Shown piece after piece: positions 6,601 to 48,968 of a stretch of DNA of 64,000 nt (positions are counted from its first letter, which is position 1; each line of letters opens with the position of its first letter). Made by a program: the position numbers and the translations under genes. Origin of the DNA: Marchantia polymorpha subsp. ruderalis (lineage: Eukaryota > Streptophyta > Marchantiopsida > Marchantiales > Marchantiaceae). The notes below the pieces were generated by a model, which was not told the DNA's origin, did no database searches, and was given only the letters and a program-made list of their open reading frames with translations. Location: assembly GCA_037833965.1 (NCBI GenBank), contig AP031353.1, positions 2,792,501-2,856,500 of the forward strand, read 5' to 3'.

Positions 6601-7860
6601 GTTGAAGCCATCCATAAGATCTGAATGCTTTCCTAAAATGTCGGCCACCAGGCTCTGCAGCTCGGTGCGGCTGATAATCTCCTGGCTGAAAATGTTGAGA
6701 CATTTCAGAAACTCCTGGTAGGTGTCGCGGTTGCGCAATCTGCCCTTCACCTTGTCGAAGAACGCAAGCTGCTCCTTCTGCAGGCTCGAGCTCTTGAGCG
6801 ACTTCTTGTCGTCGTCGACCAGAGGCGATGCCGACAATCCCTGCAGGGCCTCGCCGCCCTCGGCGGCCTGAGATTGCTTACGAATCAACTCGTCAGCTCG
6901 CCGGGCGGACTTGCGCTTGTGGGGGAGCCGCTGCGAGGCGTCCAAATCCTTTTCTTTTCCGTCGTCGAGATCTTTGGCCGCCTTGTCCTTATCCTTCTCT
7001 CGTCGATCAAAATCGTCTTTCTTCTCCTTGTCCGACTTCTTCCGCTGCTCCTTCTCCACCTTCGACGATAACCGTTCCGGAACCCCATCTCCATGCCTGT
7101 CAGATCCTCGATCGCGGTCTCCGTAGGAGCCAATCTTTTCCCTCTTAACTACCCTCTCCGCGTGTATCTGGCGGCCTTGAATCAATCCGGAAGCTTTCTC
7201 GACGGCGCCACGAATGTTCGAGTGAGTGGGCCGCAGAGGCCCGACAGGTGCGCCAGAAGAATCTGGCAGGAAGTACGTGAACTCCTCCAGCAGGTCTGCG
7301 TGCTCACTGAACAGCGTCGCGACCTCTTGATACACTTCACTGATTGACTTATTGCCTTTTCGGTACATATTCAAAATCTCCAGAAACGCCTTGTACACGT
7401 GCTCATCCGTTGAAAAGCGTGTCTTGATCTTGTTGACATAGTTGATGGCCTGATCAAATTCCACCGGCTGCTTCTGAGGCTTGGGGGGCGGAGGCTCCAG
7501 GACCTCCTCTGCAATCGTAATCTCATAACCCTTGGGTAGAAATGTGTTGAACCCGAGAATGAGTTCTCGGTGGCCCTTGAAAAGATCCTTAACCCGAATA
7601 ATCACGCCCGCCGTATCAATTCGTTGCGCCTTGAAATCTTTCATCACCTCCAGAAATTCGTCGTACTTATCTTTGTCATCCTTGAACATATCTTTCACCG
7701 CCTTCAGATATGCAAGAGCATCGTCCGTCGTCAGGCGCGGTTGAGGGATGTTGTTGTTCGATGTTGGCAGGGATGCATCAGATGTCGCCGTTTCTCCTCT
7801 GTACCCTGCCACGCGCTTCACCTGCGGGGCCGAAGCCCCTTCCTCCCTTGACCGCTTCAT
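3634..7860 (-). CDS. SIN3/SNL: SIN3-like transcriptional co-repressor, intronless
   Basis: Scaffold of the nuclear SIN3-histone deacetylase co-repressor complex. The frame opens upstream at 8022, but plant SIN3 proteins begin with a Met-Lys-Arg motif, so I take the ATG at 7860 (MKRSREE), giving 1408 residues. In this numbering paired amphipathic helix (PAH) domains lie at about 44-112, 134-200 and 362-426. The HDAC-interaction domain follows at about 514-620 (ELDLSNCERCTPSYRLLP and a VLNDSWVS motif). A strongly acidic tract spans about 990-1085 and the conserved SIN3 C-terminal region about 1108-1408. Lys/Arg/Asp/Glu-rich linkers separate PAH2, PAH3 and the HDAC domain. All family domains are present, so it looks full-length and functional. 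The oddity is a single uninterrupted 4.2-kb exon, whereas plant SIN3 genes usually have many introns. This suggests a retrocopy or lineage-specific intron loss (inference). Confidence 0.95.
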   Translation of the reverse strand: MKRSREEGASAPQVKRVAGYRGETATSDASLPTSNNNIPQPRLTTDDALAYLKAVKDMFKDDKDKYDEFLEVMKDFKAQRIDTAGVIIRVKDLFKGHRELILGFNTFLPKGYEITIAEEVLEPPPPKPQKQPVEFDQAINYVNKIKTRFSTDEHVYKAFLEILNMYRKGNKSISEVYQEVATLFSEHADLLEEFTYFLPDSSGAPVGPLRPTHSNIRGAVEKASGLIQGRQIHAERVVKREKIGSYGDRDRGSDRHGDGVPERLSSKVEKEQRKKSDKEKKDDFDRREKDKDKAAKDLDDGKEKDLDASQRLPHKRKSARRADELIRKQSQAAEGGEALQGLSASPLVDDDKKSLKSSSLQKEQLAFFDKVKGRLRNRDTYQEFLKCLNIFSQEIISRTELQSLVADILGKHSDLMDGFNDFLSRRENLEGYLAGVFSSKKLDFGEGTMLKPPKVEKDKERERDRKERDGETPMNEPEHEREKDRDRSAFLGPKDPTCQKASSMFNKEKYSNKPISELDLSNCERCTPSYRLLPKSYPKPISTHRTDLAREVLNDSWVSVTSGSEDYSFKHMRKNQYEESLFRCEDDRFELDMLLESTNVTARRVTELLDTLQDPSLSKLNLPHVEDHLTPINLRCIERIYGDHGLDVVDLVRKNSSVALPVILNRLKQKQDDWSRCRTDMNKVWAEVYAKNYHKSLDHRSFYFKQQDKKSLSTKALITEIKEISEKKRREDDSAVAVASGNRRPLIPDLKFVYSDPTIHEDVFKIIKYSLEEVCNSPDQSQKILRMWTDVIEPFFSVARRAQGVDDRLDAAKSQTLAATKGSSADGAEVSGNYGEAREPEKAALQDGKAGEPEGSVASANALGLGKSGSSFSASAPKLTPMSVDESADPGPARRSSTAADELEFGSVEKAGEVKANHRSRPLLISKNSSGGHLEISTRGDREEGELSPSPDLEDRGTSQFMHNHSTFADKYKLRDGLDGAVMSKSICPQLEIEESEGNDPDVEGDADDEGEESASENLSDDVDLSGNESHDADDGSQDDHEDEDDDEDAEREGKAESEGEADGDGDDNDGERDRMSSPPLDMSYSECPPLAPYLDTDDIPRLGSQNCNVFYGNDNAYVIFRLHQTLYERILCAKTNAIAAERKWKSIKDTAPPNLYAKFQKVLLNLLDGSTDNAKFEDECRTIIGTQSYILFTLDKLIFKLVKQLQAAISDDVLQKMLVLHTYEMSRPPGLFIDHVYFANASVLLHDDNIYRFEYNVKSTECLMQIMEGGFDKHDVPANALESSFSTYLNNFLHIPIEEKVFHHRIFLARNKSKVVGTDDECVALQKKMVNATVVNGLEYKISCNTSKVSYVLDTEDFFRRNLFKGGYNSRRRTRAEADLEAEQDRQRRRIRFCKWFEQSSNSIQEK

Positions 7861-8560
7861 CCTCCTTCGCCCTTCAGAAACACAGCTCACTTCTATCATG
7901 TAACGACTCCCGCTGCACTCCTTGGCATCTCTGAGCCCTGCCGCTGCTCCACAGTCCGGACTCACAGGTCCAATCGCAATACTGCACCGCCCCGCCTTCG
8001 AGCATGCGCCAAAGATTGACACACTGCCAGCTTAATTCTCCAACGTCGCTCCTCAAGTGTCCGGACCTCCTCTGCACCCAGTGCATACGTAATGGACTCG
8101 ACCCACAGCCCGACGACTTCTGACTGGCTCCGCCTCTGCGCACGACCACGACGAGAATGACGAGAACATAATGGACTCAGCCCCGAGCACCGCCTCTGAA
8201 TGCCTCCCTCCCCGCCCTCCGGATGAGACCACGGCAATCAGGAAAAAGTGCACCGCCTCTGTAAGGAGCACAAAGCCAGAGCAGAACGAATCGACGTGGA
8301 TGCGGGCTAACGAACACAAGCGCAGACAGCTGCTGCGCCGAATGCAACTCACTACTGACTGAGTCGAGCAAAGCCGCAGAGACTCACAGGGAGCGAGCGA
8401 GCGAGCGAGCGAACGAGTGAGGGACGGACGGACGATGAGAGAAAACAAGCAACCAAAACGATCGAGAGGGCGAGCGAGCCTAAAGGCCCGTAAGAGGACT
8501 AACTATTAACCACACACCAGACAACAAACAGCGCAAGCAGGAGAGCAGCAGGGGAGCCAG
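7861..8560 (-). promoter_or_regulatory. probable 5' leader and promoter of the SIN3 gene
   Basis: The region upstream of the chosen SIN3 start is GC-rich and has a GAGC tetranucleotide run at about 8392-8412. The SIN3 frame stays open back to 8022, so a longer N-terminus (54 extra residues) is possible but has no family support. Other short frames on both strands here look like chance. The transcription start cannot be placed. Confidence 0.4.
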
Positions 8561-28268: not shown

Positions 28269-28273
28269 TAATT

Positions 28274-28539
28274 TGTAAACGGTAAATCGAGAAAACATAA
28301 AACACAACATATCAAATCACAACTGAGACACTATATAACGTGGTTCACCCTCAGGGGTTACGTCCACAAAGGAATACGCTCGAGAGAGTTTACTGTTTGT
28401 TTGAAGTGATCCTCTTCCTATCACCCTCAGGGTATATATACCCAAGGTAGTCAACTACCTAAGCTATAAATAGCTACATATGCGGTTAACCAAGGTTAAC
28501 TAACCTCAGTTAACTCCTTAACCAGAGTTAATATCAACA
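28274..28539 (-). repeat. 3' LTR of the young Copia
   Basis: A 266-bp copy matching 35257-35522 at all but one position. Written on the element strand it starts TGTTGATATTAAC and ends CCGTTTACA. It carries a TATA-like TATTTATAG, as expected of an LTR promoter. The left target duplication TAATT is at 28269-28273. Confidence 0.97.
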
Positions 28540-28560
28540 ATCTCCCCCTTAACTTGCGTT
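28540..28560 (-). other. polypurine tract of the young Copia
   Basis: On the element strand a purine-rich AAGGGGGAGATT directly precedes the 3' LTR, the expected position for plus-strand DNA priming. Confidence 0.75.
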
Positions 28561-29005
28561 AAGGAGTCTCAGTAACCTCTCTAACCTATATTATTACTCA
28601 GCGGAAAGTTCTAGACAAAATGCTGACTGAAGTTCCCTCTTTAAACGAGAGTTAACTGGAACTAAGCCGTAGCCATGATAGGATAGAGTAATAATATACA
28701 GAGGTAACTCAACAATATCTCACCTTAACTCATGTCAAGGAATTTTTTAGTCGCCTCTCTAACCTATATTATTACTCTCATACCAAGATAGAGTAATAAT
28801 ATACAGAGGTAACTCAACAATATCTCACCTTAACTCATGTCAAGGAATTTTAGTCACCTCTCTAACCTATATTATTACTCTGCGGAAAGTTCTAAACGGA
28901 AACCTATCACAAGGTCCCTCTTTAAACGAGAGTTAACTAAAACTAAACCGTAGCCATAAGAGGATAGAGTAACAATATACAGAGGTAACTAAGAACAATA
29001 TCTCT
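28545..29005 (-). repeat. tandem repeats with inverted segments in the 3' untranslated part of the young Copia
   Basis: Between the end of pol and the polypurine tract, about three imperfect units recur. Each has CCTCTCTAACCTATATTATT followed by a partly inverted partner AGAGTAATAATATACAGAGG, and two carry a GCGGAAAGTTCTA...CCCTCTTTAAACGAGAG block. The inverted halves can form stems in the element RNA. The arrangement is unusual for a Copia 3' region and may mark non-autonomous rearrangement or an RNA structure. Confidence 0.8.
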
Positions 29006-32000
29006 CGTGCTCCCTATGCACAACTTGCATAGTAGCACAATGTCGCCTGAAACTCTCCAAAGGAATAACTTTGGTCAACGCATCAGCTGGATTGAGTTTA
29101 CCGTCAATCTTGACTAGCTCAATTGTTTTATCAGACACCGCTTGTCTAATAAAGTGATATCTGATGTCGATGTGCTTCACTCGGCTATCCATGACTTGAT
29201 TCGCAGCCAAATGTAAAGCACTCTGGCTATCACAATGAAGATTGACCACGCCTTGTGTTAGTCCCATCTCCATGATAAGCTTATCTAACCAAATAGCTTC
29301 CTTTGCTGCTTCTGCTGCTGCCACGTACTCAGCTTCTGTTGTTGACTGAGCTACGCACTTCTGCAAGGTAGATCTCCAACTAATGCTTCCGCCGCCAAGT
29401 GTAAACACATATCCGGTTGTAGATCTCCTCTTGTCTAGATCTTGTCCATAGTCAGCATCAACGTAGCCAAACAAGGACTTGGCATTGTCTAATAAGCCAT
29501 CAAACAATAAGCCATAATCCACAGTACTCTTCAGATATCTCAGAATCCATTTCACTGCTTCCCAGTGAACTTTTCCAGGATTTGACATGTACCTGCTCAC
29601 CTTTCCCATTGCTAGAGCAATATCAGGCCTAGTGCACACCATTAAATACATGAGACTGCCTACTGCTTGTTCATAGGGAACACATGACATTTTTCCCTTT
29701 TCCACAGCATCTGTAGGACATTGGGCTGCGGAAAGTTTAAAATGTGCCGGCAGAGGAGTCCATACTCCTTTCGAATCGGCCATGTTGAACCTGTCAAGTA
29801 TACGGCGAACATACTTGTCCTGACTCAGCCATAGCTTCTTCTGTTCAAAATCTCTATAAATATCCATGCCTAGTATCCTTCTTGACTCCCCCATATCCTT
29901 CATCTTAAATGCAGACTTCAGCTGGCTTTTGCATTCATCGACATCGGATTGGTTCTTTGCCAAGATAAGCATGTCGTCAACGTAGAGTACTAAAATGATG
30001 AGATTGAAAGTCTCATCATTCACCTTCTTCATATAGACACAAGGATCATACACGCTTCGTAGAAAACCTTGTGCCTTCATAAACTCATCAAAACGTGTAT
30101 TCCACTGCCTAGGAGCTTGCTTCAGTCCATACAATGATTTCAGTAATCTACAGACCCATCTTTCCTGGCCTTTGACCTCAAAGCCAATTGGTTGTCTCAT
30201 GTAGATCTCCTCCTCTAAATATCCATAAAGAAAAGCTGTAACCACATCCATCTGATCCATAACAAGACTGAATGTTGCGGCCAGTGCACATACCAGACGA
30301 ATTGTAGCGTATTTTGCTACAGGCGAAAAAACTTCGTTATAATCCACACCCTTTTCCTGTGTGAAACCTCTAGCCACCAGTCTGGCTTTGAAGATTCTTG
30401 CATCATCTCCTGCTGGATTGTCTTTCAGCTTGTACACCCACTTGGAGTCAATCACTGTCTGATTTTTAGGAAGCTCAACCAACTCCCAAGTCTTGTTGTC
30501 AAGCAGTGACTGCATCTCTCGCTCCATAGCAGCATTCCATTCAAGCTTGTTGACTGAAGCTTGAGCTTCTCTGTATGAAGAGGGTTCACCTTCTTCCAGG
30601 ATCAACGCCATACCATCCTCCTCTTCAAAATCAAGATCACGATCCTTGAGAATAGATGAATTTGCCCATGCACCAAATCTCTCAGGCGCTCTACTAGATC
30701 GTTGTGATCTCCTAGTAGACGTTTCCATTTGATCTCTGTTGTTTGGTATTGTTGCAATAGGCTCACCAATAATAGCCTGCTCATGTGGTTCTTGTTCCTC
30801 AAGAACTTGCTCCACATGTATCGGTGCTTCTTCATGTGACATATCATTAGTGATAGAATGATCAAACTCCCCCACAACAATATGAGTGAGTAAAGATTTC
30901 CCCTTGTTAGCCTCCACATTCTCCCCCTCTTTCAATAAGCGAGGCTCATTGAAAGAAACATCTCTACTAACAATCACCTTGCAGGCAACAGGATCCCATA
31001 ACCTGTAACCTTTCACGCCACTAGCATATCCAAGAAAACGACATTTCTTGGATGTAGGTTCTAATTTGTTCCTGTGCTCCTTAGGTATAAGAGGATAAGC
31101 AGTACACCCAAAAATCCTCAAACGACTATAATCTGCCATCCGTTTATGTCTCAATTCAAACGGTGTGGAGAAATTGATTGCACTAGAAGGAGAAAGGTTT
31201 ACCAAATAAGTTGCGGTGTTGACAGCTTCGGCCCAAAATTCCCCTGGTAAACCGGATTCGCTTAGCATACTCCGCACTTTCTCCAACACTGTTCGATTGA
31301 GTCGCTCAGAAACAGCATTTTGTTGTGGAGTATAAATCGTCGTGAAATGGCGAGTAATCCCCTCCTCTATACAATACCTCTGAAATTCCTCACTAGTATA
31401 CTCGCCACCATTATCTGATCGTAAATATTTCACCTTGTGTCCAGTCTGAGTCTCAACTTGTATGCGCCAACTTTTGAAGGTTGAGAACACTTCAGACTTG
31501 TGGGTAAGAAAATATACCCACACATACCTAGAGTAATCATCTATAAAGGAGACATAGTACAACTTTCCAGATAGTGAGGCAACAGGAGATGGTCCCCACA
31601 CATCACTATGTACATACTCCAGTATGTCCTTGGAATTATGAGTTCCAACGCCAAAAGTTTTCCTATGTTGCTTTCCCATGATGCAATGTTCACAAAATGA
31701 CAGATCAACTTTACCCAAACCGGGTAATACATTTTTCTCATCAAGAAGAGACATGTATCGATCACTCATATGGCCTAATCTGGAATGTCATACATGAGAC
31801 ATCTCAACGCGAGATCTGGTAAAGTGAACTTCGCCACAAACAGTGATGCCCTCTAACAAGTACAGATTATTATGCTTGTATCCCCGAAGAATAATTTTCT
31901 TATCACATGATCTGACATCTAACACGCCCTGCCGAGAACTCCATTCTAAGCCGTGTGAGTCCAACACTCCAAGAGAGATCAAGTTCTTTCTCATGTTAGG

Positions 32001-32300
32001 TATAAACCTAACCTGGTTCAACGTACGGTTGACACCATCAAACATGCGGATCTTTACAGATCCAACACCCTCAATTCTACAGGGTTGGTCGTTCCCCATA
32101 AGAACTGAACCGTTTGATACGGAGAAAGTACAAAAGAACTCTCTAATGTAACAAATGTGATAAGAACAAGCACTGTCCAGAATCCATACATCACCAACAA
32201 CTTGCGGTGAGTTGTAGAGGGCATACCTCTGGCATCATAGGCCATCCGTGTACAAATCGTTCGCCTCAGTATCAAGATGTTCAGCAACGTTTGCCACTGA
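28989..32300 (-). mobile_element. pol region of the young Copia (protease, integrase, RT, RNase H)
   Basis: In element order (right to left) one sees the protease region (WILDSACSYH-like, about 32.2 kb), GAG-pre-integrase with a CX2C finger half (about 31.7 kb), the integrase core with DVWGP, RSDNGGEY and NAVSERLNRT (about 31.2-31.6 kb), reverse transcriptase with ARLVARGFTQ, DVVTAFLYG and the YVDD catalytic motif (about 29.9-30.5 kb), and RNase H with YVDADYG, STTEAEYVAA and VKHIDIRYH (about 29.1-29.5 kb). Order and motifs are those of plant Copia. The region looks nearly intact; as a fossil record I do not list its defects. Confidence 0.95.
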
Positions 32301-32319: not shown

Positions 32320-33182
32320 ATCCGGCAAAACTTCCTGATGTGGCCTTTCTTACCACAGCTCCAACAAACAACATTCTTCTTGTCAAATGGTTGAGCCAAA
32401 AATTGTACTTACCTTCGGTCAGGAGATTTTGATCTCTGTCGCTTCAAGCCTGGACGTCGTGAATCGTGGATGTCTCTCGGTTGTGACTGACCTTTTGCCA
32501 TAAAAAGTGCTGTCCCATAAGTGGATGGAACGGAAGGAGATAACAAATCCTGCTCAACTGCATCCGTCAGAAGTGCACTTACAACCTCGTTGTAAGTGAC
32601 TGCTGTGTTCTGACGATGAAGAAGAATCTTCGATAGTGTCTGATAGGTAGATGGTAATGAGTGAAGAAGATGCATTGCCTTCTTTGTGTCAGTAAGCTCC
32701 TCCCCCATATTCCGAAGATCCACCAATAGATTTCCATAGGCGTGAATGTGGTCTTGTATGTGTGTGCCAGGCTTCATAGTGAACCGTAACAATCGCATGT
32801 AAGTGTTCATCACAATCGTTGGATTCTTTTGATGGAACCGTTGTTGAAGCGCATCGAGCAACTTGGAAACTTCAGAGTACTCCTCAACCTGCTTGAGTAT
32901 AGTAGGGTCTAGATATGCCAACACAGTGCAAACTGCCTGGTCCTGAGCGGTAGTCCATTCAATGTCATTTATGCTAGAAGGTTTTTCTCCCAAGCAGATA
33001 GTGAGACCCATGGATCGTAGTTTCACTTTTACTTGCTTTTCCCAAAGCAAATAATCACCGTGGCCATCGAAAGGTATGATGTTATATCCAAAATTGCCAC
33101 CAATTTGTCGACCTATAGACTCTGCACGTCGAAAATGAGAGACAATAGCAGCTTCCGAGTCAATTTCCTCCTTTTGATTCAT
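32320..33182 (-). mobile_element. gag region of the young Copia
   Basis: A gag-type polypeptide with the Copia nucleocapsid pattern: an N-terminal DUF4219-like segment (FDGHGDYLLWEKQVKVKL), a UBN2-type central domain (ALQQRFHQKNPTIVMNTYMR, LLHSLPSTYQTL), a basic Arg/Ser/Lys-rich stretch and a CX2CX4HX4C zinc knuckle near 32.32-32.37 kb (CWSCGKKGHIRKFC). It would package the element RNA. Confidence 0.92.
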
Positions 33183-33249
33183 CGTTCAGGTCCTGAAAAG
33201 TGCCCAGATGCTCTAGTTGTGTCGAGAGCTTTCCAACGATACCCAATTT

Positions 33250-33970
33250 GACTAGATTCTGATGAAAAATATTTCTGAGAAATATTTATGACGGAATATT
33301 CCTGCACCGTAGGTCCGACCGTCACCGTTGATATCACCGTCAGACCGTTGCCCCTCTGACCGCGACTGTAACCACGTTCAGATCTCCCTCCTGCCGGAAA
33401 TACTCCGCTCCTCTCCTGCCCTAACCGCGCGGGGGGAGCTCCTTCCTCCCTCCCTAACCGCGCGCGGGAGGTGGCGTGGCTCCTTCCTCCCTTCCTAACC
33501 GCGCGCGGGGGTGGAAGGAGTAGGCGCTGCCTGCCCTAAACGCGCGGGGGGGGGGGGGGGGGGGGGAACTCCCCCCTGCCGGAAATACTCCGCTCCTCTC
33601 CTGCGGGGAAGGGGGAGATTACTCCTTCCGACCCTACTCCCCTCCTCTCCTGCGGGCTCCGCTCCTCACCTGTCGCTACCTCCTGCCTTCACGCGGGAGG
33701 GGTAGCTGCGGAAATACTCCGCTCTTGTTACTCCAACTCGTACCCTAACTGCCTGCTGCCACCTCCAGGTACAAAAGTACTCCCTCTGGAGTCCGCTCGT
33801 GCGCGACCTGGGGGTATTACTCCCTCTTGCGCGACCTGCGCGGCCGCTCCGCTCTTGCGCGAAGGAGGGGGGAGGGGGGAGGACCGACTGCGCTCCTCCC
33901 TACTCCTCCTCTCTTCCCTACCTGCCTGCTGCCACCTCCAGGTACAAAAGTACTCCTTCCTCACATTCAA
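33250..33970. repeat. GC-rich degenerate repeats in the leader of the young Copia
   Basis: Units of CTCCTTCCTCC-CTAACCGCGCG-GGGG type recur several times at 33.36-33.72 kb, with a run of about 21 G at 33546-33566. A block of about 33 bp (CTGCCTGCTGCCACCTCCAG then GTACAAAAGTACTCC) occurs at 33749-33783 and again at 33922-33956. Composition contrasts strongly with the AT-rich surroundings and with the rest of the element, as if acquired from a GC-rich host gene leader. Confidence 0.75.
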
Positions 33971-34271
33971 TTGTACCGTGGCATCGAGACTTGATCACAC
34001 CATGTCGAATCGAAGTGAAAGGCGATCGCAGCGTGACGTTACAATTCGCCTTTTGAGAAACGACAGTGTATCATAAGCTTGCAAAGTGGGACTGTGGCCG
34101 ATAGTCGTTCTTCTGTTTACTCCTTCAGCTGCCTCGAAACGTTCTCTCTCTTCCGGAAATTTGCAGCGTAGAGTCTAGTCGGAGCAGTTTTCAACCCCCG
34201 GGGAGTGACGAACGTGATGGCACCTCAAGAGCGAGAGAGCCGCGGGTGCTTCGGGCAGCTGTCTCCGGTAA

Positions 34272-34730
34272 TACAGAAATTCTGAGAGCCTTCAGCCCAG
34301 AGAGGTTGTGAATGCTCTGCGGGAGGACTATGCGCGTTCGTACTTTCTGACAGGAGAGTTTCTGGATTCTCTCTACACGGAGTACTGCTTGTTTGCTGAT
34401 CCTACTATTCAGTTCTCAGGACGAGATTTGTATAGACGTAATTTAAAATTGCTGGTCCCTTTCTATGAGGATCCTTCACTCACCCTTGAAAGTATCCAGC
34501 AGGACGAAGATGGTGACTCAAAGTTCGTCGAAACTTCTTGGAAATTGAGAGTTTATATAAAACTACCTTGGAAACCCTTCATTGCTGTGGATGGTCGCAC
34601 CAAGTACAGCTTAAATGCCGAAAATAAAATCGTGGAGCACGTAGAGAGCTGGAATGTGACAGCGATAGAAGCCGTGGGGCAGATTTTTAAGCCCTCCGAG
34701 AGGGCACTTTGGAAGACCTCCAAAAGTTAA
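34272..34730 (+). pseudogene. captured host gene fragment: DUF2358-family C-terminal domain, intronless, inside the Copia
   Basis: An open frame of 153 codons encodes a nearly complete DUF2358 domain (NTF2-like fold family, mostly chloroplast proteins of unknown function). Recognisable stretches are ALREDYARSYFLTGEF, ADPTIQFSGRDLYRRNLKLL, WKLRVYIKLPWKPFIAVDG and HVESWNVTAIEAVGQIF. There is no ATG at a family-like position, and the N-terminal (transit-peptide) part is missing or out of frame. It lies on the plus strand, antisense to the element, wholly between the 5' LTR and gag, so it moves with the element. Lack of introns across the domain suggests capture of a processed transcript, though the parent's intron pattern is not visible here. 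The frame still looks well conserved, so the capture is probably recent. Confidence 0.85.
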
Positions 34731-35237
34731 CTTTACTAGAAGTCGCGCTGACGGTGGTCGAGCCTATTCCCTTACTTCGAGGTGAAAAACCTGACCACCA
34801 TCACCATGACCTTGCAAAAAACCCCAAAGCGACAGAAACAATCGTTTCCAGGCAACAATCCCTTGGATGATTGCCCGATGCAGAGTGAACGACGAACTAC
34901 TGGTGGAGCAAGTGCCGGCTACCAAGTAGAGCAAGTGCCGGCCTTCTGCTACGATCCACGACACAAGAAGAACGAAGTCCACCACCAGTCGCCCTCCGAG
35001 AGCCAAGATCTCACACCGCCCGAACTCCGACGCCTGAACTTAGCTCTCGACAATCTCTCCAAAACTCAAAACTTCAGTAGCTTGACAGAACTTCTACAAC
35101 CTGCAAACACTTTCACACTCACTTCGAAAAATTATCAACAGAATCTGTCACTGAGTCCGTCAGAAAACCTTCTGTTAGAAAAACTGTCACCGTACGAAAC
35201 CAACCCGACAAAACCCTCCGACACTAAGTCCGAACCG

Positions 35238-35256
35238 AACCTGCTCTGATACCAAA
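35238..35256 (-). other. primer-binding site of the young Copia (initiator-Met tRNA)
   Basis: On the element strand the bases after the 5' LTR read TTTGGTATCAGAGCAGG, matching the complement of the 3' end of plant initiator methionine tRNA, the standard Copia primer. Confidence 0.92.
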
Positions 35257-35522
35257 TGTAAACGGTAAATCGAGAAAACATAAAACACAACATATCAAAT
35301 CACAACTGAGACACTATATAACGTGGTTCACCCTCAGGGGTTACGTCCACAAAGGAATACGCTCGAGAGAGTTTACTGTTTGTTTGAAGTGATCCTCTTC
35401 CTATCACCCTCAGGGTATATATACCCAAGGTAGTCAACTACCTAACCTATAAATAGCTACATATGCGGTTAACCAAGGTTAACTAACCTCAGTTAACTCC
35501 TTAACCAGAGTTAATATCAACA
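35257..35522 (-). repeat. 5' LTR of the young Copia
   Basis: A 266-bp LTR differing from the other copy at a single base (a G/C difference within the CTACCTAAGCT/CTACCTAACCT stretch). The right target duplication TAATT follows at 35523-35527. Confidence 0.97.
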
Positions 35523-35527
35523 TAATT

Positions 35528-38520
35528 GACTAAAATCTATTGTGATAAGATAAATTAATAATAATAAATTAGTTCAGTGGGAGTTATAAATTGACTTCAC
35601 AACTGAATTCTAGCATTTTTATAAATCAAAATATTGTCTATATTTATTTATTTATTCAACATGTTTACAAACTGTTTAGTTTGCATTAAATGTGATTTTT
35701 TTTCCACCGTCATATTTTTTCCACCTAATTATCTTTGAAATATATTGGTTAAAGAACGATGATATTTATGTACATTTTCAAAAAAACTAAATATTACTTG
35801 ACTATTGATTTGCATTTTTTAGTGATTTATATTATACAACTTAACTTGATACTTTATTTATTTGAAGAAATCATCTATCTTCATTATTGCTTTATGCTTT
35901 TCAGCAATCATCACATCATGCATAATTGTGTATCATGAAGCTTCATTTTATCAAGGGTATGAAATCTATAAAATTTATTTTAAAATTAAATTATCATTGA
36001 TAATTTGCTTGTCTCATACTATGATTTGGATGATTTTGCTTATATTTATTTGTAGATTTTTTTTTAAGTTTTCATTTTAATATTAGCTTAATTTTTTTCC
36101 AATCAAACCTTGTTTTTACTTTGATTTTTTTTAGCATAAGTTGTTATATAGATTGAATAACAAATAACACTTATACATCAAATGAATGATTGCATTTGTT
36201 CATTTATCAAAATTATATACAATATGATGTTTGTTCAAATTGTTTCATAGATTTTCATTCAAATAATAATATAATAAAATTATTATTATTATTAATATAA
36301 ATTAATAAATAGACTCAAATATTAAATATTTTTGAATATTTTCCATTCATAAAAAAAAAGTTGGTTCAAAGTTAAAGAAAAATTTGACAAAATTCAAATG
36401 CAAACTACATAAATGCTAGCATTTAAAAAATTTAGTGTGATTTTGATTGATAAAAATTTAAGTTTTATTTTCAAAATGTCATAATTTTTATTTTTTCAAT
36501 CTCGTAATATTCATTGATTGTTGAAACTTACAAAACTGTATACTTGTCAAATTAAAATGTTGTATGAAGATTTTATAAACATTGGGTGATTATATTTGTA
36601 TATTATTTGATATATGACATTGTGTTTGAGCAAACTTAGTTAAAATTTAATCCAATGTCTATTTATTTTTTAATTGCAACAATCTGACCATAATTTTGTC
36701 AGATTAAATTAATACATGAATTTTAAGTGATTTTGTTCCATGATAATGATTAATTCAATAGTGTTAACAAAATGCAATCTTGCACAATCATTTGTAACTC
36801 TCATATTGTTGGAAATTTCAGTCTTATTTACTACTTTGTTTATCATGAGATTACAAATGCCATCATCAATAATTTAATGCAAGTTGAAATTAAATTATTT
36901 TCAATTATTATTTATGACTAATTTGAATAAAATACTTGATTATGTTTAAACATCATAGCTTTTCATTGAAAGAAACAATACTTTAATTTTGATGTGAATT
37001 AAAATATATGAAGATCATAATATACTATTTATGTTGGATATAAAATTCATACTTTCTTATTTCACAATCTGATGCATTAAGATTATACTCTGGATTTGTT
37101 AAATAAAGCTTCAAATTATCAAATTATGAAAAGTAAAGTTAATTTCAAAATGTTTAAATTTAATTTCTAATAATTAAAATTTTCAATTTCAAAAGGAATT
37201 ATCTCAATAAATTTCGATTTGTTTGAAAATATTTATTTAATTTTTTCATAATATGATTTGAAAAAAACAGAATTAAATTATATTGAACTAGTTTTAATTA
37301 TCAAAAACTAGCAAAAGTATTATGAAGTCAAATATGCTTTCTTAAAGTTACTAAAAATTGATCTATGTTTATTATTATTTTTATTCCATTTATAATTATA
37401 GTGCATTTATGATAAAAAATCATCTATGGAATTTGGAAATATTTATTGTGGTGATTATTTTGAGATAAAAAATATATAGATTTTCATAATTTCAAATTTA
37501 AGATTTGTGCAATTATTAAGTTTTTCTTTAGTATCTTAATAATTCAATTTTATAAATATAATTTGCTTATCCATATAAAAGAATGAATAAGATTATATCT
37601 CACTTCAAGATTTTTGGTCTGCCAAACAATTTCTGAAATTTGGCGACAAACTTTAAATCTTGATGCAAACATATGAAGTTTAATTGGTTTTTTTAGCCAT
37701 TGCGGATAAAAAAACATTTGGTATGAAATGCCAAATCATTGAAATTTTTTTTCTATCCATTTTGAAATTTCAACAATAATTCGCTCATAAGTTCTAATCA
37801 AATGTTTGGGTAATATTATATATATAATATTAATATAAAATATAAATGTTTAAAATATAATAAATTTTAAACCTAAAGAATAAAAATTTGTTTTTTTAAA
37901 TTTAGAAAGTTAAATTTTATCTCACTTCAATGTTATTGTTTTCTTGCAATTGATTTTAAATTTGAATATCAAACTTTAAAATTTGTAAACAATTATTTTG
38001 AATAGAAAATCAATATTATATATATATTTTTTTAAAAAAACAAAATGATCGAAGTTATGCTTAATATACACGTATCTTCGTTATCGATTATAATGGTAGG
38101 TTTGATGAGCATCTTTCGCATTAATTTGCATTTATGAATAAAATTTGAAAGTTTGTAAAATTTGTTAGTTATAACTTTTCCTATGGTTCATTTGAAATAA
38201 ATATCTTTCTTTAAATAAATTATCTTTAAAGAAATTAACGAAGTAATTCACACTCCACTTGGAAAATTCCATTCTAACTTAGTTAGATGCAAGATAAAAT
38301 GGTTTAATATGATAACTATGATGGTGTTTGATATTTAGTCATTTTCCACACACATGTGCAAATATCTACATTTCACAAGCTATATGACGTTAGCGTCTTA
38401 TTGTAGTATGTGGGGGATTACGAATTTTCAACTATTTATTTTGAATTTAAATTAGCCACTAAGTATGATAAATCAAAGTTAAGGTATATTTAGTATCTCT
38501 CAAATTCCCCTTTGCTTGAA
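35528..38520. other. AT-rich, CG-poor DNA right of the young Copia
   Basis: About 3 kb of very AT-rich sequence with many A/T homopolymers, few CG dinucleotides and no long frame. It ends abruptly near 38.5 kb, just before the GC-rich leader of the eIF3L gene. It probably represents heavily decayed methylated repeats; no family is recognisable. Plastid or mitochondrial origin was considered but no organellar gene was seen. Confidence 0.6.
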
Positions 38521-38957
38521 GCATTGAGATCACCTCATAGTACAATGAGGACACTGTAGACAAAATACTGTGGTCAATGAATTTTCAATATCTGTTACGG
38601 GTTAGAAGGCCACCATGCTGGCTCAGGCATGGTAACCGCGTAGAGAGCGACGCAGTAACGAGGGCGGCCGACCGAGGAGGTCCAAGCGCAGTAAGGAGCT
38701 TTCAGGGTATCGTCGCTTGCGTTTGTCGGCTGCCCCTGAGCCTGAGCCTCGCTCGCGGGGCTCTAAGATTTGCAGCAGCCAGCCGCTCATTCCCCTCTTT
38801 GCCTGTCCCCGATCCCTTTCGCGGACGGAGCTCGCGGACTTCCGAAGAAGTGAGCCATTTTCGCCGCAGGGCGATCGAGATCTTGCGCACTCGGGTCGAC
38901 GATTCATCCAGGCCCGCACGAAGGCGAGGAGCCGAACGAAGCAGTGTGTCTCGAGCA
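38521..38957 (+). promoter_or_regulatory. probable promoter and 5' leader of the eIF3L gene
   Basis: Composition switches from AT-rich to GC-rich at about 38.6 kb. The eIF3L frame stays open upstream to 38577, but those 127 codons are Arg/Ser-rich and have no family counterpart. A young transposon lies only 3 kb away, so this leader is close to probable heterochromatin. Confidence 0.45.
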
Positions 38958-40634
38958 ATGTCTTACAACGATTATGGTCGAGACAGTAGAGACAACCGGG
39001 ACAACAGGGGGGATTATGGAGGAAACAGAGGAGGAGGTGGTGGCGGTGGCGGTAGGAACGAAGATGTAGGCGGATACGAGCAGGATTACGATGACAGACC
39101 CGAGTTCAGGGATGGATTCCGTGATCTTGCGCCCCCGGAGCCCGGCCAGGACCCCGCCAGCTATGTGCCTGATGTCGTCAAGACCTTCGTCGTGTATTTG
39201 TATAGGCACATCCGAGAGAAGAATGTCTACGAAATCCATCAGATGTACGAGGGCTCCTTTCAGAAGCTGAGCGAGCGCATGTTCCAGAAGACCCCCTGGC
39301 CTTCGGTGGAAGTCATCGCGCCCTATGTGGAGAACGACCATGTCTTCTGCTTGTTGTACAAGGAGATGTGGTTCCGTCACGCGTATGCGCTTCTCAGCCC
39401 TACCCTAGAGCAGAGATGTGATTCTTGGGACAACTATTGCAATCTGTTCCAGGTCATTCTTCACGGAAACGTGAATATGCAGTTGCCCAACCAGTGGCTC
39501 TGGGATATGGTCGACGAGTTCATCTACCAGTTCCAGTCCTTCTGTCAGTACCGCGCCAAGCTCAAGAACAAGACCGATCGAGAGCTCGCTCTTCTGCGCC
39601 AATGCGACGAGGTTTGGAACGTGTACGGTGTCCTGAATTATCTGCAGGCCCTTATCGACAAGTCGATGATCATCCAAATTCTCGAGGAGGAGAAGGATGG
39701 CTCCGTGACATTCACGGCCACCGATGGTTACGACTATCACGGAGGTACTAATGTGCTCAAGGTTTTAGGTTATTTCAGCATTGTGGGTCTTCTTAGGGTT
39801 CACTGTCTGTTGGGTGACTACCATAGCGGCCTGAAGGCTTTGGCGCCCATCGACATCAACGCACCGGGAGTGTACAATACCGTCATCGGGTGCCAGGTGA
39901 CGACCATCTACTACTTCGGATTTGCCAACATGATGCTGCGGAGGTATGTGGATGGAATTAGGGCATTCAACCAGGTTCTGTTGTACATCCATAAGACCAA
40001 GCAGTTCCATCAGCGCTCCCCGCAGTATGATCAAATTCACAAGAAGAACGAGCAGATGTACGCTCTTCTGGCGATCTGCCTTTCTCTCTGCCCTCACGGA
40101 AAGCTGGTCGAGGAGAATGTGAACAACCAGTTGAGGGAGAAGTACGCCGATAAGATGCTGAGGATGCAGAGGAGCGACGAAGCCATATTCGACGAACTTT
40201 TCTCATACGCTTGCCCGAAGTTCATCACTCCTTCTCCACCCAACTACGAGGAGCCGCTTGTAAACTACAACCAGGACGCATACAGACTACAGCTCAAATT
40301 GTTTCTGTCGGACGTGCGCCAACAACAATTGCTCTCGAGCATTCGCAGTTTCTTGAAGCTGTACACCACCATTTCGATCGCCAAACTCGCTTCTTTCATG
40401 GACATCGACGAGCCAACCCTGAGGATGGCGTTGCTGACTTACAAGCACAAGACACATGTCATCGACACGGACGGTAGCGTGTTGTCCAACGCTGACGTCG
40501 AGTTCTATATCGATGACGACATGGTCCACATCGCTGATACCAAGGAGACGAAGCGCTTCGGAGACTACTTTATCCGTCACATCACTAGATTCGAGGACAT
40601 CATCACAGACTTGGAACGCGTTCAATTAGAGTGA
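38958..40634 (+). CDS. EIF3L: translation initiation factor eIF3 subunit L, intronless
   Basis: Subunit of the eIF3 complex, which joins the 40S ribosome and promotes mRNA recruitment in the cytosol. I take the ATG at 38958 (MSYNDYGRDSRDN), giving 558 residues, within the family range. The first 60 or so residues are a Gly/Arg/Asp-rich disordered tail (GDYGGNRGGGGGGGG). The conserved core follows, with VPDVVKTFVVYLYRHI, NVYEIHQMYEGSFQKLSERM, PWPSVEVIAPYV and the central helical repeat with KVLGYFSIVGLLRVHCLLGD. A C-terminal PCI domain spans about 330-520 (LKLYTTISIAKLASFMDIDE, LRMALLTYKHKTHV). It reads as a full-length functional protein. The absence of introns is notable, since plant homologues are generally spliced (family knowledge from memory). 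Confidence 0.97.
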   Translation: MSYNDYGRDSRDNRDNRGDYGGNRGGGGGGGGRNEDVGGYEQDYDDRPEFRDGFRDLAPPEPGQDPASYVPDVVKTFVVYLYRHIREKNVYEIHQMYEGSFQKLSERMFQKTPWPSVEVIAPYVENDHVFCLLYKEMWFRHAYALLSPTLEQRCDSWDNYCNLFQVILHGNVNMQLPNQWLWDMVDEFIYQFQSFCQYRAKLKNKTDRELALLRQCDEVWNVYGVLNYLQALIDKSMIIQILEEEKDGSVTFTATDGYDYHGGTNVLKVLGYFSIVGLLRVHCLLGDYHSGLKALAPIDINAPGVYNTVIGCQVTTIYYFGFANMMLRRYVDGIRAFNQVLLYIHKTKQFHQRSPQYDQIHKKNEQMYALLAICLSLCPHGKLVEENVNNQLREKYADKMLRMQRSDEAIFDELFSYACPKFITPSPPNYEEPLVNYNQDAYRLQLKLFLSDVRQQQLLSSIRSFLKLYTTISIAKLASFMDIDEPTLRMALLTYKHKTHVIDTDGSVLSNADVEFYIDDDMVHIADTKETKRFGDYFIRHITRFEDIITDLERVQLE

Positions 40635-43860: not shown

Positions 43861-46187
43861 GGGGGAACTCCACTTTCGAGGGGAAGTCCGACGGAAGCAA
43901 TCGGGGCTCGGAAGGGGGGTGGGGGTGGGGCTGGGGCTGGGGGATGAGCCGGGGGCAGCTCGCTCGGTCCGTAGGAGAAAAAGTCCGACCGCGGACGTTG
44001 AACGTTCCGTTCAGCCTCGCCCCGCCCCTGCGGCAACGGCAGCAGTGCCGCGTGAAGGTCGACGGGGCTGGGGCTGGGGCTGGGGAAGGGCGGGGGCTAA
44101 AGGCAAGAGGCGACGGAGTAAGCCCCGAGAAACAGAGTTGGACGACTCGAGCGAGAGGGACTTTGACTGACCGACTGACTCGACGAGACCGGCCGCGCGG
44201 GCAGTTGGATGTCGCCCCGGGGGGCCCACGGTCCCCCGGGTCCAGGGCTCTGGCGCCGGACCGGGCCAGCCACCTCAGCCACCCGATAGCACACCAGCGA
44301 GCATCTTCCTTAACTCACTCTCGAGCCCCACGAGCGACCGGAAGCATGCGCTGTTGCCCAGGTTGCTAGTCGGCCCCCCACGGGGCTTGGCTGGCCCAGC
44401 CACCCAAGCTTCGGGGCTCCGGTTTCTCGAAAGAGCGTAGTTGACTGGACGTGATCGAGTTTTCAAAGCAGCGGGGGGTGGGGGAAAATAGCGTGTGCAC
44501 CAACAGTCATAATCCCCCCTCCCCGCCTCCCTGCCTGATCCACAAATAATCGGTCTCGCAAGCTTTCCCCCGCCCCCGCCCCCTCCCGCCCCGCGCGCTT
44601 GACCCGAGCGACCGAACAACTGTCGCCTGTCGTCTTGTGCTGTAGGCACGAACCTCTGTGGGCGTCTCGCGACACAGTGCCCTGAAGCCCAAGCCCAAGC
44701 CCAAGCCCAACCCCCGTCTTCTATAACCAGAAGTCCTTGCGGCGGTTCTCCCCCCCACACCTTAACCCCACCCCCATCCCCAACCCTCTCGGAGTGCTGG
44801 TCAGAGCAATTCAAGCAACATCATCGGGCCGGACCGACACCCTCGACCTCGACCTCACCCTCACCTCACCTGAAGCCAGCGCGAGCTTTTGCCTCTCGAC
44901 TGCAGGCGATCGTTCAGGGAACGCAATAGAAGGAGAGGGAATGGCATGGAATGAATGAGAATTGCGTGCGTGCATGTGCGAGAGAGCTGCTCCAAGGGAG
45001 CTGACAGTCTCAGGAATTGTGACGGCCATGTCCTCATGCGAATGACAGACGACGTACTGCAGACCCAAGGCCTCGCTCGCGGCGTGTGTACTATAGAAGA
45101 ATAAAACGAGGGCTCGGATCCACTTCCCCTCGTATCCTTGAAATCCTTTCTCAGCTGCTGGGGCAGTCCGGAGCCTGCACGCACAGTGGTCATCACACAC
45201 TAGAATCAATCACCCGCTGCGGATCGAGCTCACTCACTTCGTAACAGCTCACGAGAGACAGATTCAAGGCAGTTAGAGCCCAGCGAGCGTCGGTCCGTCG
45301 TATCGAGTCCAGGCGGATCTGCGACGATCGTCACATCATCATCATCATCATCATCATCATCCTGCACATCAAGCACCACAGTCGTCCGCGGGGTAACTGG
45401 ATCATTTAACTCGAAACGCCATCGCTCGTCCCGGGAGGAATTTTGATTTCGTAGCTTTAGAGAAAATTCTGAAGCGGAAGCAGAAGCAGAAGCAGGAGCT
45501 GGAGCGTCCGAAGCAGGAGAAGCAGCAGCAGCGGCAGCTATCGTCGACCGATCGAGCGAATTCTCCGAGTGCGTGCAGACACGAGCTGAAGATCAGTTGG
45601 CATCAGTCGACAAGCAATTGTAATTCCCAGGGCGGGCAATTCCGCACAGGCCATAGATACAGGCGCCACGATTCCCGGGCCAGCTCGATTTTATGCCCTC
45701 TCTTTCCTCCCCTCCCCTCTCCCCCTCCCTCTCCCTCTCCCCATCTCTTCCCCACCTTCCCCCCATCTATCCCTCTCTCCCTCTCTCCGGCATGGGCTCG
45801 AGAGAGCAGGAGCAGGAGCAGGAGCAGCAGGCGCAGCGGCAGAGGATTGGACAGGACCGCAGCGGGTGCGAGACGAGCAGTAGCTAGACGCAATCGGAAG
45901 CAGTAGACTGAGATCACACGGAGGTTCATTGAACAATACTTGTCTATACTCAGAGGAGCGCAGGAGCTCGATGTAGGTCACGGCGTGCAGTAGAACAAGG
46001 CACAGCTCCTCGTTAGTGTGTAGAGGTGAAGATCATCACGTCTGGAATTTCTGGAATTTCTATCTATCAGTAGGCAATCAATCAATCAATCGATCGATCG
46101 CCCACTCGATTCGATTCGAGAATTCGGTTCGAGCAATCTGGATCGGTCCAGGGGCGTCGTCTCATGTAAGGCAGCAGGCAGGGAGAG
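43861..46187. promoter_or_regulatory. GC-rich region upstream of the DUF247 gene with G-quadruplex-like tracts and microsatellites
   Basis: Two dense G-run clusters (43914-43943 and 44063-44097, GGGGCTGGGG units) could form quadruplexes on the plus strand, and C-run arrays at about 44.69-44.78 kb would do so on the minus strand. An ATC trinucleotide array sits at 45334-45361, an AAGCAG/AGCAGGAG hexamer-like array at about 45.47-45.53 kb and CCCTCTCC tracts at about 45.70-45.80 kb. Long frames here on both strands follow the GC bias and match nothing. Probably the promoter and long leader of the downstream gene. Confidence 0.45.
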
Positions 46188-48968
46188 ATGATCAGCGAGA
46201 AGCCATGGGTGGCGCACATCGAGGACGAGATCAACAGTTTGGTGGATCTGGATCCTCGAGACCGCGTGCGAGGGTCGATATTCCGCGTGCCGCCGTCGGT
46301 GCGCAGAGTGAAGCCGCACCTGTACAGCCCGCAGATCATCCCGTTCGGGCTGTACAACGTGGAGCGCATTCGGAGCGAGAAGATGAGCCGCATGGACAGG
46401 CTGAAGCTCGAGGTGGCGAGCCGCGTGCTGAAGATCATCAAGGCGCCCTACACCGAGTGCTACCAGCACTACGACGCCGCGCTCGACTGCCTGAGTCTGC
46501 CGCGAGTGACGCCCAACCAGCTGCACCCGATCCTGGCCGACCTGGTGGCGGCGCTAAGCCGGCTGCCCTACGTGTCGACGGACTCGGAGGGCAAGCTGGA
46601 GATGATGCGCGGGCGGATCGCGCACCTCAGAGCTATGGCGCAAGCGCCGGGCTACGAGCTGCGCGAGCGCGAGTCCAAACTGCTGTCGGCGGATCTGGAC
46701 TCGGTGTTCCAGGTGTTCGCGCGGTTCCTCGAGCTCAACAGCGAGAGCAACAGGAAGAATTGGAAGTGGCTGTGCAACAAAGTGGTCGGGGACGCGGCGG
46801 TGATGGAGATTTACGACGACGTCTCGGACGTGTACGAGGGCGCCGCGCGGTCGCTGCTCACGCTCGACGCTGTTTTTCTCGTGGCCTTCATGCTCTCGCT
46901 GCACTCGGGCCCGGCGCCCGAGTCGAGGATTCTGATCGAGGAGCTCGGCTGGTTCAACCCCGTGCTCGATGTCTTCCGGCAGGAAGGAGTGCGTTGCAAT
47001 GCGCACGAGATCGGGCTCGACATGTGGCTCATGGAGAATCAGATCCCGCTCGCCATGATCCGCAGCGCACTCGAGTGCATGTGGGAGGTGTCGAATCAGG
47101 CTGGAGGCAGCGCGAGCTCAGACAGGGCGCTCGTCACGCTCGTGCGCCATGCCGTCAAGGGCGTGCTGCATCTCGTGCCGGGGGACTGCTCTAAGCACAC
47201 CACTTCGATCGACGCGGTGCCTATCCCCGAGTGCAAGCACCTCCTCGAGTGCTTGTACAGGGTCGTTTGCCCCAGCGTCAAGACCTCCGGCGGTAGCCGC
47301 CGCCCGCCCTTGCGACGTCACGCGCGCGCTAAGCCCTCGGGCGCCTCGGCGGCGGACTTCGCAGCGCGCTCCCGCGGCCTCGACGCGCGACCCTCCCAAA
47401 GCGCGGCCTCGTCGCGCGCCGACATCGAGTCGCGGTACCCGAGCGCCTCGGCGACAGGAGGCGTGCCGCTGTTAGCCCCGTCGCCGTCGTGCCCGAATTA
47501 CCCCCGCCTTCCGCCGGAGCTGCAGCTGTACCCCCCGGCGCACTCGAGCTCGTTCCCGGGGTTCCAACCGTCGCCGCCGTCGTCCCCGACGGCGCGAGAG
47601 CCGTCGGCACCTGCGTCGCATCCCAATAAGCAGTACGACAACGCGTACCACCAGCGGCCCCCGTCGCACCTCGTGCTTGCGCCGCCGCCGCTGCCCACGT
47701 CCATCGCGCCGTCGCTGCTGCCCTTCGGCGCGGCCTCAGGCTACCACAAGAGCGAGGCGTTCCGGGCGAACGGCGTGACGCACGTCCTGGCCAACGGCGA
47801 GACGCGGGAGATGGACCGGTACGGACGCTCGAACGGGCACGGCGAGCCCGCTGCGCCGTCGGGGTGGAGCGACTCGGCCGCGTCGCCCGTCGGGACGGAT
47901 GACGAGCTCGAGCTCCCATTCCGCGCCGCCGCGCGCCGGAGCCCGACGCCGCTGCCGGTGTCGGATGTCGCGATGCTGGACGATGGGATGAACCAGGTGG
48001 AGTTCACGCTGGCCGACTCGCGCGGGCGCAACAACTCCTACTCCACCGTGACCATCGACATCCCCGGCGGCCTGCCGGTCGGCAAGCGCCTGCTGGAGAC
48101 GGCGCGCGCCGCGGGGGGACACTCGGGGCTGACCGTCTCGTCGGGCTGCGACGGCGGCCCCGCGGGCTACGTCTCGCTGGGCACGCTGCGCTCGGCGTCC
48201 CTGAGAACCATCCGGACGATTAAGAGCGCCCGCAGCTGGGCCGGCGCGCCGTGGCGCCTCGTGCGCCGGATTCTGGCGCGGGTCGGGGCCGCGGACCGGA
48301 ACTCGCGACTGGGGCACAAGGTGCCGTCGCGCGCCGCCTTCACTGCCCCCAGGGCTTCGCAGCCCCTCTGCTCGGGGGGCTCCGACACCAGGATTACCCC
48401 CGTGCCGTCTGTGTCGCAGCTGAGGAAGGCGGGCATCGGCATCCGCAGCGGGTCGCAGGTCGGGTGCAAGCTGCTGCTGGGGGAAGGCGGGGGCTGCGGG
48501 TTTATTAAGCCCACGCTCTTCCTGCCGAAGCTCGAGATCGACGCGAGCACGGAGCGAATTTTGCAAAACCTCGTGGCCTTCGAGCTGGTGAGCGCATCGG
48601 AGCACGAGCTCATGAGCTACCTCCACTTCATGAACGGGCTGATCAAAACGGAGGAGGACGTGCAATGGCTGCAGCGCGGCAACAAGGCGGTGATCTGGAT
48701 TCACCCGCTGAGCTCCGAGTTCGAGGTCGTCACCATGTTCGGCTCTCTGCTGCAGAATTGCTACTTTCTCGAGACCGGCAAATCCCGCCATCTCCGCCGC
48801 GAGCTCAGCAAGTGCTACAGCCGCTCGTGGCGCCACCGGTTCGCTTCGTTCGTGGACGTTCTCTGCACGCGCTCGTGGATTCTCATCTCGCTGATCGTTG
48901 CCACGCTCATCCTCGTGGTGCTGCAGACGGCGTACATGCTTCTGGGTTTCTACCGCCTTGTGGATTGA
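46188..48968 (+). CDS. DUF247 plant membrane protein with a large internal insertion
   Basis: Plant-specific DUF247 family, membrane-anchored proteins of mostly unknown biochemical role; some grass members act in self-incompatibility. The 926-residue single-exon frame begins MISEKPWVAHIEDEIN. The N-terminal DUF247 half spans about 5-362 (GSIFRVPPSVR, LYSPQIIPFGLYNVER, LMENQIPLAMIRSALE, and ECKHLLECLYRVV). The C-terminal half spans about 736-926 (SQLRKAGIGI, FLPKLEIDASTERILQNL, VAFE, SYLHFMNGLIKTEEDV) and ends in one membrane helix at about 897-920. Between them is a Pro/Ser/Ala/Gly-rich, very GC-rich insertion of about 370 residues (47283-48393), absent from typical 400-550 residue members. 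No intron signals bound the insertion clearly, but a retained intron cannot be excluded. Confidence 0.92.
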   Translation: MISEKPWVAHIEDEINSLVDLDPRDRVRGSIFRVPPSVRRVKPHLYSPQIIPFGLYNVERIRSEKMSRMDRLKLEVASRVLKIIKAPYTECYQHYDAALDCLSLPRVTPNQLHPILADLVAALSRLPYVSTDSEGKLEMMRGRIAHLRAMAQAPGYELRERESKLLSADLDSVFQVFARFLELNSESNRKNWKWLCNKVVGDAAVMEIYDDVSDVYEGAARSLLTLDAVFLVAFMLSLHSGPAPESRILIEELGWFNPVLDVFRQEGVRCNAHEIGLDMWLMENQIPLAMIRSALECMWEVSNQAGGSASSDRALVTLVRHAVKGVLHLVPGDCSKHTTSIDAVPIPECKHLLECLYRVVCPSVKTSGGSRRPPLRRHARAKPSGASAADFAARSRGLDARPSQSAASSRADIESRYPSASATGGVPLLAPSPSCPNYPRLPPELQLYPPAHSSSFPGFQPSPPSSPTAREPSAPASHPNKQYDNAYHQRPPSHLVLAPPPLPTSIAPSLLPFGAASGYHKSEAFRANGVTHVLANGETREMDRYGRSNGHGEPAAPSGWSDSAASPVGTDDELELPFRAAARRSPTPLPVSDVAMLDDGMNQVEFTLADSRGRNNSYSTVTIDIPGGLPVGKRLLETARAAGGHSGLTVSSGCDGGPAGYVSLGTLRSASLRTIRTIKSARSWAGAPWRLVRRILARVGAADRNSRLGHKVPSRAAFTAPRASQPLCSGGSDTRITPVPSVSQLRKAGIGIRSGSQVGCKLLLGEGGGCGFIKPTLFLPKLEIDASTERILQNLVAFELVSASEHELMSYLHFMNGLIKTEEDVQWLQRGNKAVIWIHPLSSEFEVVTMFGSLLQNCYFLETGKSRHLRRELSKCYSRSWRHRFASFVDVLCTRSWILISLIVATLILVVLQTAYMLLGFYRLVD

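Follow-up and report, generated by a model that had tools for sequence, protein, structure and literature searches.

Gene capture by LTR retrotransposons is an established process, described for the Bs1 element of maize and for elements of rice, sorghum and animals (PMC13317346; PMC7264820; PMC5408686). In the account of Bs1 cited here, the element transduced parts of ATPase, xylan endohydrolase and glucanase genes, and the three host genes gave rise to a chimeric gene (PMC13317346). Captured genes usually lie in the same sense as the LTR element (PMC7264820); for LTR-mediated retrocopies, template switching at short similarities has been proposed (PMC5408686), and one LTR-flanked retrocopy of Arabidopsis is reported to have neither poly(A) nor a target duplication (PMC4838847). 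Other plant LTR elements, namely Grande, RIRE2 and Retand, carry an open frame antisense to gag-pol (PMC7264820; PMC11963269). Outside of mobile elements, DNA breaks in mouse zygotes were found to be repaired with cDNA that lacked introns and poly(A) and showed short microhomology; one of the pieces was reversed (PMC4516963).

The locus described here lies in a window of 64,000 nucleotides (G000:C4:2792501-2856500), and the genome searched comprises 241 Mb in nine contigs. The window contains an LTR retrotransposon on the minus strand, bounded by a TAATT target-site duplication (28269-28273 and 35523-35527); the 3′ LTR (28274-28539) and the 5′ LTR (35257-35522), defined by LTR-LTR comparison, end in TG...CA and differ at one of 266 positions (99.6% identity). 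The gag ORF (32409-33185) matches Retrotran_gag_2 (PF14223, E 2.1e-20). The pol region (28989-32234) consists of two open stretches with an in-frame stop between them, which were searched separately and unjoined: Pol_BBD was found in the stretch 31788-32234, and gag_pre-integrase, integrase core, SH3_retrovirus and RVT_2 in the stretch 28989-31787. In the latter, rve occupies residues 59-154 and RVT_2 residues 431-679, so that integrase precedes the reverse transcriptase, which is the Copia order. LTRs, TG...CA ends, 5-bp duplication and domain order thus all identify the element as a Ty1/Copia retrotransposon. The window copy has no uninterrupted gag-pol, as gag is separate from the Pol_BBD stretch and the latter from the integrase-RT stretch; this bears on the autonomy of the copy and not on its Ty1/Copia membership. 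The proposal that the element is young, with perfect target duplications and LTRs differing at a single site, is borne out by these data, which also confirm that the composite of element and captured sequence transposed recently.

In the surroundings of these features, diverged direct repeats of 83-97% identity are present between pol and the 3′ LTR (28523-29004), and the insertion adjoins nearly 3 kb of 17-25% GC (35528-38300), the window mean being 45% GC. Three long open frames without interruption, counted from stop to stop, are found at 38541-40634 (697 codons), 3634-8031 (1465 codons) and 46170-48968 (932 codons); the first presumably encodes a protein resembling eIF3 subunit L, and we take the second to resemble a Sin3-type protein.

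The leader of this young Copia element holds, in antisense, a reverse-transcribed piece of a spliced host DUF2358 mRNA. The captured segment (33959-34784, plus strand; leader bases 777-1602) is located between the 5′ LTR and gag, antisense to gag-pol, and it matches the host gene in eight blocks of 97.5-100% identity from which six introns are missing. It includes an open frame of 152 aa without any Met codon (34272-34730), which matches Pfam PF10184 with an E value of 1.7e-21 and 77 bits (cut-off 24.3). The DUF2358 assignment, made in the first-pass annotation from the letters alone, thus persisted on profile search, with the domain on the plus strand and gag, opposite to it, on the minus strand. 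The left bound of this frame is a TAA, which is common to all three captured copies that reach the site, and the frame itself is a frame-shifted remainder of the coding sequence of the parent.

A parental gene was sought by a whole-genome DNA search with the leader, and a split gene was found on the same contig, 3.1 Mb away (G000:C4:5932429-5934934); besides the element copies, this was the only locus matching leader bases 777-1602 in ordered pieces. When the 2.5 kb of the parent were searched in turn, 28 matches were recovered among the best candidates scored, all of them in the parent and in four elements. The captured segment is therefore not the sole DUF2358 copy, a possibility that had been raised against the capture; further DUF2358 matches lie at C3 16867993, C8 3400123 and C8 3401165 (L051, L052), and they have no DNA match to the leader. 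In the alignment of the parent locus (L040) with the leader, six of the seven block borders correspond to GT-AG introns, missing exactly in the copy. The seventh (leader bases 965/967) is not GT-AG and shows 2 shared nucleotides and CT-rich sequence; here 137 nt of the parent (L040 2618-2754, including the putative start codon at 2652) are absent from the window copy, at 34147-34149. All 137 nt are kept in a second carrier element, C7b, and 92 nt in a third, C7a; together with the non-GT-AG borders and the 2 shared nucleotides, this leads us to read the gap as a deletion private to the window copy. A first intron that was retained and then lost was ruled out on the same border features, the absence of GT-AG, the CT-rich sequence and the 2 shared nucleotides. 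The converse derivation, of the split locus from the element, would have nothing in its favor beyond the shared sequence, and we regard it as wrong with near certainty: the locus is interrupted by introns, its frame of 247 aa is open and possesses a start codon, exons alone are common to the elements, and relatives of the element on C3 and C6 lack the segment.

If its first intron is taken to end at L040 3184, the parent can be read through without interruption for 247 aa, DUF2358 occupying residues 106-218. In the captured form the junction lies instead at L040 3243, so that 58 nt are skipped at the splice acceptor, the frame is shifted and an early stop follows. We infer that the acceptor yielding the 247-aa frame is the normal one and that the codon at 2652 is the start codon of the parent. 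Since the 58-nt skip is found in all three copies that reach the junction, the captured molecule would be, as judged from the reading frame, a frame-shifted splice form of the RNA. Thus, conservation of the domain reflects recent ancestry and not a kept function: the four copies are 98.6-99.1% identical to the parent.

The extent of the foreign sequence also required revision. A leader of about 2 kb had been described as foreign-looking, with GC-rich repeats unlike the rest of the element; host origin, antisense placement and passage through RNA all stand, but only the 826 bp at 33959-34784 match the host gene. The GC-rich repetitive part outside this match (33183-33958, minus strand) is matched piecewise in copies on C3 and C7, and its first ~200 bp recur in many further element copies. 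The part adjoining the 5′ LTR (34785-35256, minus strand) is 97% identical to the uncaptured C3 element and, over part of its length, 81% identical to the C6 relative; it ends on the right in TGGTATCAGAGC, which we take to be the primer-binding site. Both parts, which are common to relatives in the same genome, occur piecewise with 83-98% identity in the capture-free C3 element, whose leader is 1.91 kb long. The GC-rich repeats are thus the family's own, long GC-rich leaders characterize this Copia family, and a wholly foreign 2-kb leader was ruled out. In the sister subfamily (L053-L063) leaders measured 1.34-2.38 kb in all 11 elements, that is, 11 of the 15 relatives fetched, and 1.34-2.27 kb in the nine that remain when L056 and L060, discussed below, are set aside; these lengths exclude L064 (6.9 kb, with a large insertion) as well as L065-L067 and the C7b and C9 copies, for which both leader ends were not located.

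Further copies with the same capture were looked for, and four elements of this genome bear it: the window element on C4, two elements on C7 (C7a at 13.6 Mb and C7b at 17.15 Mb) and a deleted element on C9. In each of the four the captured sequence sits between the LTRs, and each has its own target duplication, 5 bp long as in all five elements examined (C4, C7a, C7b, C9 and the uncaptured C3). LTR mismatches per 266-268 positions are 1 in C4, 0 in C7a, 0 in C7b, 1 in C9 and 3 in the uncaptured C3 element. The captured piece measures 826 bp in the window, 963 bp in C7b, 918 bp in C7a and 422 bp in C9, with 11, 9, 13 and 4 substitutions, respectively, relative to the parent. The C9 element (G000:C9:17566627-17571404; L044, L049) has a target duplication and a truncated capture, and its pol (window position 31892) joins the captured piece (window position 34363) directly, which indicates that gag and much of the leader were lost. 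A same-subfamily LTR was also observed on C5 (G000:C5:15829310-15829575; L048) with ATAAG on both sides; as its second LTR was not found, recombination between the two LTRs has apparently left it as a solo LTR.

The left junction of the capture is common to the three copies that have a left end, and the right junction to all four. Sites 348, 450 and 490 are changed in all three copies covering them, sites 752, 792 and 931 in all four, and the change at site 562 is common to the window, C7b and C9 copies and not found in C7a. Shared junctions and common substitutions fit a single capture followed by branching, and we infer one capture in the ancestor of the C4, C7a, C7b and C9 elements. The uncaptured site is preserved in the C3 and C6 relatives, which have nearly the same short sequence between the flanks; in the C3 element (20387118-20394050), the match covers leader bases 559-778 and resumes at 1619-2073, the capture replacing about 23 bp of leader present there. 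The divergence between parent and C7b (0.93%) would correspond to roughly 0.7 million years at 7e-9 substitutions per site per year, an age that is indicative only, as this rate is quoted for Arabidopsis and may not be that of the host and as errors of reverse transcription inflate the divergence.

As to the origin of the composite, a frame-shifted splice form of the host DUF2358 mRNA would have been reverse-transcribed, and a piece of the cDNA would have entered the leader of the common ancestor once, in antisense, before the composite spread to the four chromosomal sites; the element would thus carry a once-captured antisense cDNA that is now most likely a neutral passenger making no normal protein, a reading that we hold with high confidence. 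Template switching onto a host mRNA during first-strand synthesis gives the sense orientation, while a host cDNA that patches a broken copy can enter in either orientation. The antisense placement thus requires one of two events, a switch while the second strand is made or the patching of a broken element copy with a piece of reverse-transcribed host mRNA. The patching route, with which the repairs reported in mouse zygotes (PMC4516963) agree, is favored and is, in our estimate, about evenly balanced between being right and wrong; second-strand switching is put forward more tentatively. The left junction shares 2 nucleotides and a stretch of five A residues follows the right junction. That stretch, together with the processed state of the captured RNA, could also suggest a DUF2358 retrocopy made by LINE-type machinery that was inserted by chance into a Copia element; however, beyond the five A residues no poly(A) tail and no target duplication was seen around the segment, about 23 bp of leader are missing instead, the left junction has the 2 shared nucleotides, and the A stretch sits where the C3 leader reads AACAACC, so that such a nested insertion appears very unlikely.

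The substitutions were also considered in the coding frame of the parent, where 12 are nonsynonymous and 3 synonymous; if sites 332 and 338 are left out, which lie beside the C7a deletion and are probably alignment effects, the counts become 10 and 3. Sites 151, 205, 931 and 935 are non-coding. The substitution pattern looks neutral, though the counts are small and would be compatible with weak selection. C4 has lost the start codon, a frame shift affects C4 as well as both C7 copies, and C9 retains only a truncated copy; together these features make a retained protein function, and hence a protein role of the captured copy, unlikely, even if a non-ATG start may still be conceived in the face of the missing start codon. 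Selection on the captured protein was rejected on the substitution counts, with or without the two doubtful sites, the frame shift and the lost start. That the window copy has an open domain frame and that four elements still carry the segment would be expected if it were a functional accessory gene of the element comparable to the antisense ORFs of Grande, RIRE2 and Retand; nevertheless, the absence of a Met codon in the window ORF, the deleted C4 start, the frame-shifting splice junction in all three copies reaching it, the excess of changing over silent substitutions and the C9 truncation render an accessory gene highly improbable.

The captured segment is a possible source of antisense RNA. 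Of the 806 21-mers of the captured strand in the window, 585 match the parent exons perfectly, with a longest run of 189 nt, and transcripts of the element would contain 826 nt almost perfectly complementary to the parent mRNA. This might give rise to double-stranded RNA and to small RNAs that lower the expression of the parent. Nothing in the sequence indicates selection for such an effect, and young elements are usually silenced; silencing of the parent by this route is therefore considered unlikely.

Two sister elements, L056 on C5 (6706790-6709260) and L060 on C9 (2691970-2694750), have in their leaders a different host segment, which is otherwise nearly unique in the genome. It spans positions 945-1836 of L056 and, on the reverse complement, 1101-2217 of L060, and it is 97% identical to G000:C4:20371173-20372078 for the C5 copy and to 20370951-20372078 for the C9 copy, the donor being L068 4951-6078 (G000:C4:20370951-20372078). 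When 5 kb around the donor were searched, the four matches obtained were the donor, L056, L060 and a match of 53 bp. A related element on C4 at 13.3 Mb (L064) runs through the insertion point without the segment. No Pfam match was found for three ORFs of the donor and no Rfam match for the L068 locus, and no introns are missing from the captured segment relative to the donor; it could thus have been taken up as DNA or as RNA. In the larger sister subfamily, a block of the leader (L054) was considered as another recent capture and discarded, since sequences 73-100% identical to it are found in many places. There were thus at least two entries of host sequence into the family's leader, each at its own position and in its own subfamily. 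A broader proposal, that the family leader repeatedly takes up host sequence and also spreads antisense RNA against the DUF2358 gene, must be regarded as rather improbable; if it were true, each new insertion would add a source of silencing against that host gene.

Compared with the described systems, the window element resembles Bs1 in having a host gene fragment within an LTR element (PMC13317346; PMC7264820). Unlike Bs1, described in the cited text as a chimeric gene from three host genes, it carries one antisense leader fragment, and no chimeric frame was seen; moreover, one genome preserves its source, the site without the capture and four daughter copies. With the LTR-mediated retrocopies of rice, sorghum, Arabidopsis and animals, as they are presented in the parts cited above, it has in common a processed gene copy between LTRs; its antisense orientation and its place in the leader set this copy apart. 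DUF2358 on the plus strand and gag on the minus strand depart from the usual sense orientation of captured genes; for LTR retrocopies, the terms antisense, orientation and strand are absent from PMC3726574. Among the matches listed from the open-licence literature, as titles and beginnings of abstracts, no capture of a DUF2358 gene by an LTR element was described.

The antisense ORFs of Grande, RIRE2 and Retand lie between pol and the 3′ LTR and are present in most copies, with no host parent found according to the passages cited; the antisense frame of the window is found instead at the other end of the element, where it separates gag from the 5′ LTR. It is young, its normal coding ability is lost and its parent gene is identified, so that both its location and its frame, which is not intact, distinguish the window copy from a conserved antisense ORF of the Grande/Retand type. 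The repair of breaks in mouse zygotes offers a likeness in its use of intron-free mRNA pieces, one of them reversed, with microhomology and no poly(A); those events, as given in the cited text, took place at induced breaks and not within mobile DNA by which the piece was later spread (PMC4516963).

Since the parent survives in a single genome together with its processed copy, the empty site and the daughter elements, a host mRNA demonstrably entered the element in antisense and was passed on. This shows a route by which host genes can become reversed inside LTR elements, and it provides a clean case for studying how a reversed capture happens and whether such copies yield small RNAs against their parents. 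The origin of the antisense ORFs in plant LTR elements is unexplained, and a provable antisense capture makes a host origin a live option. An intron-free copy lies between LTRs and moved with the element, and relatives without the capture exist; the window element is thus a known kind of LTR gene capture, unusual in its orientation and place, and unusually well resolved.
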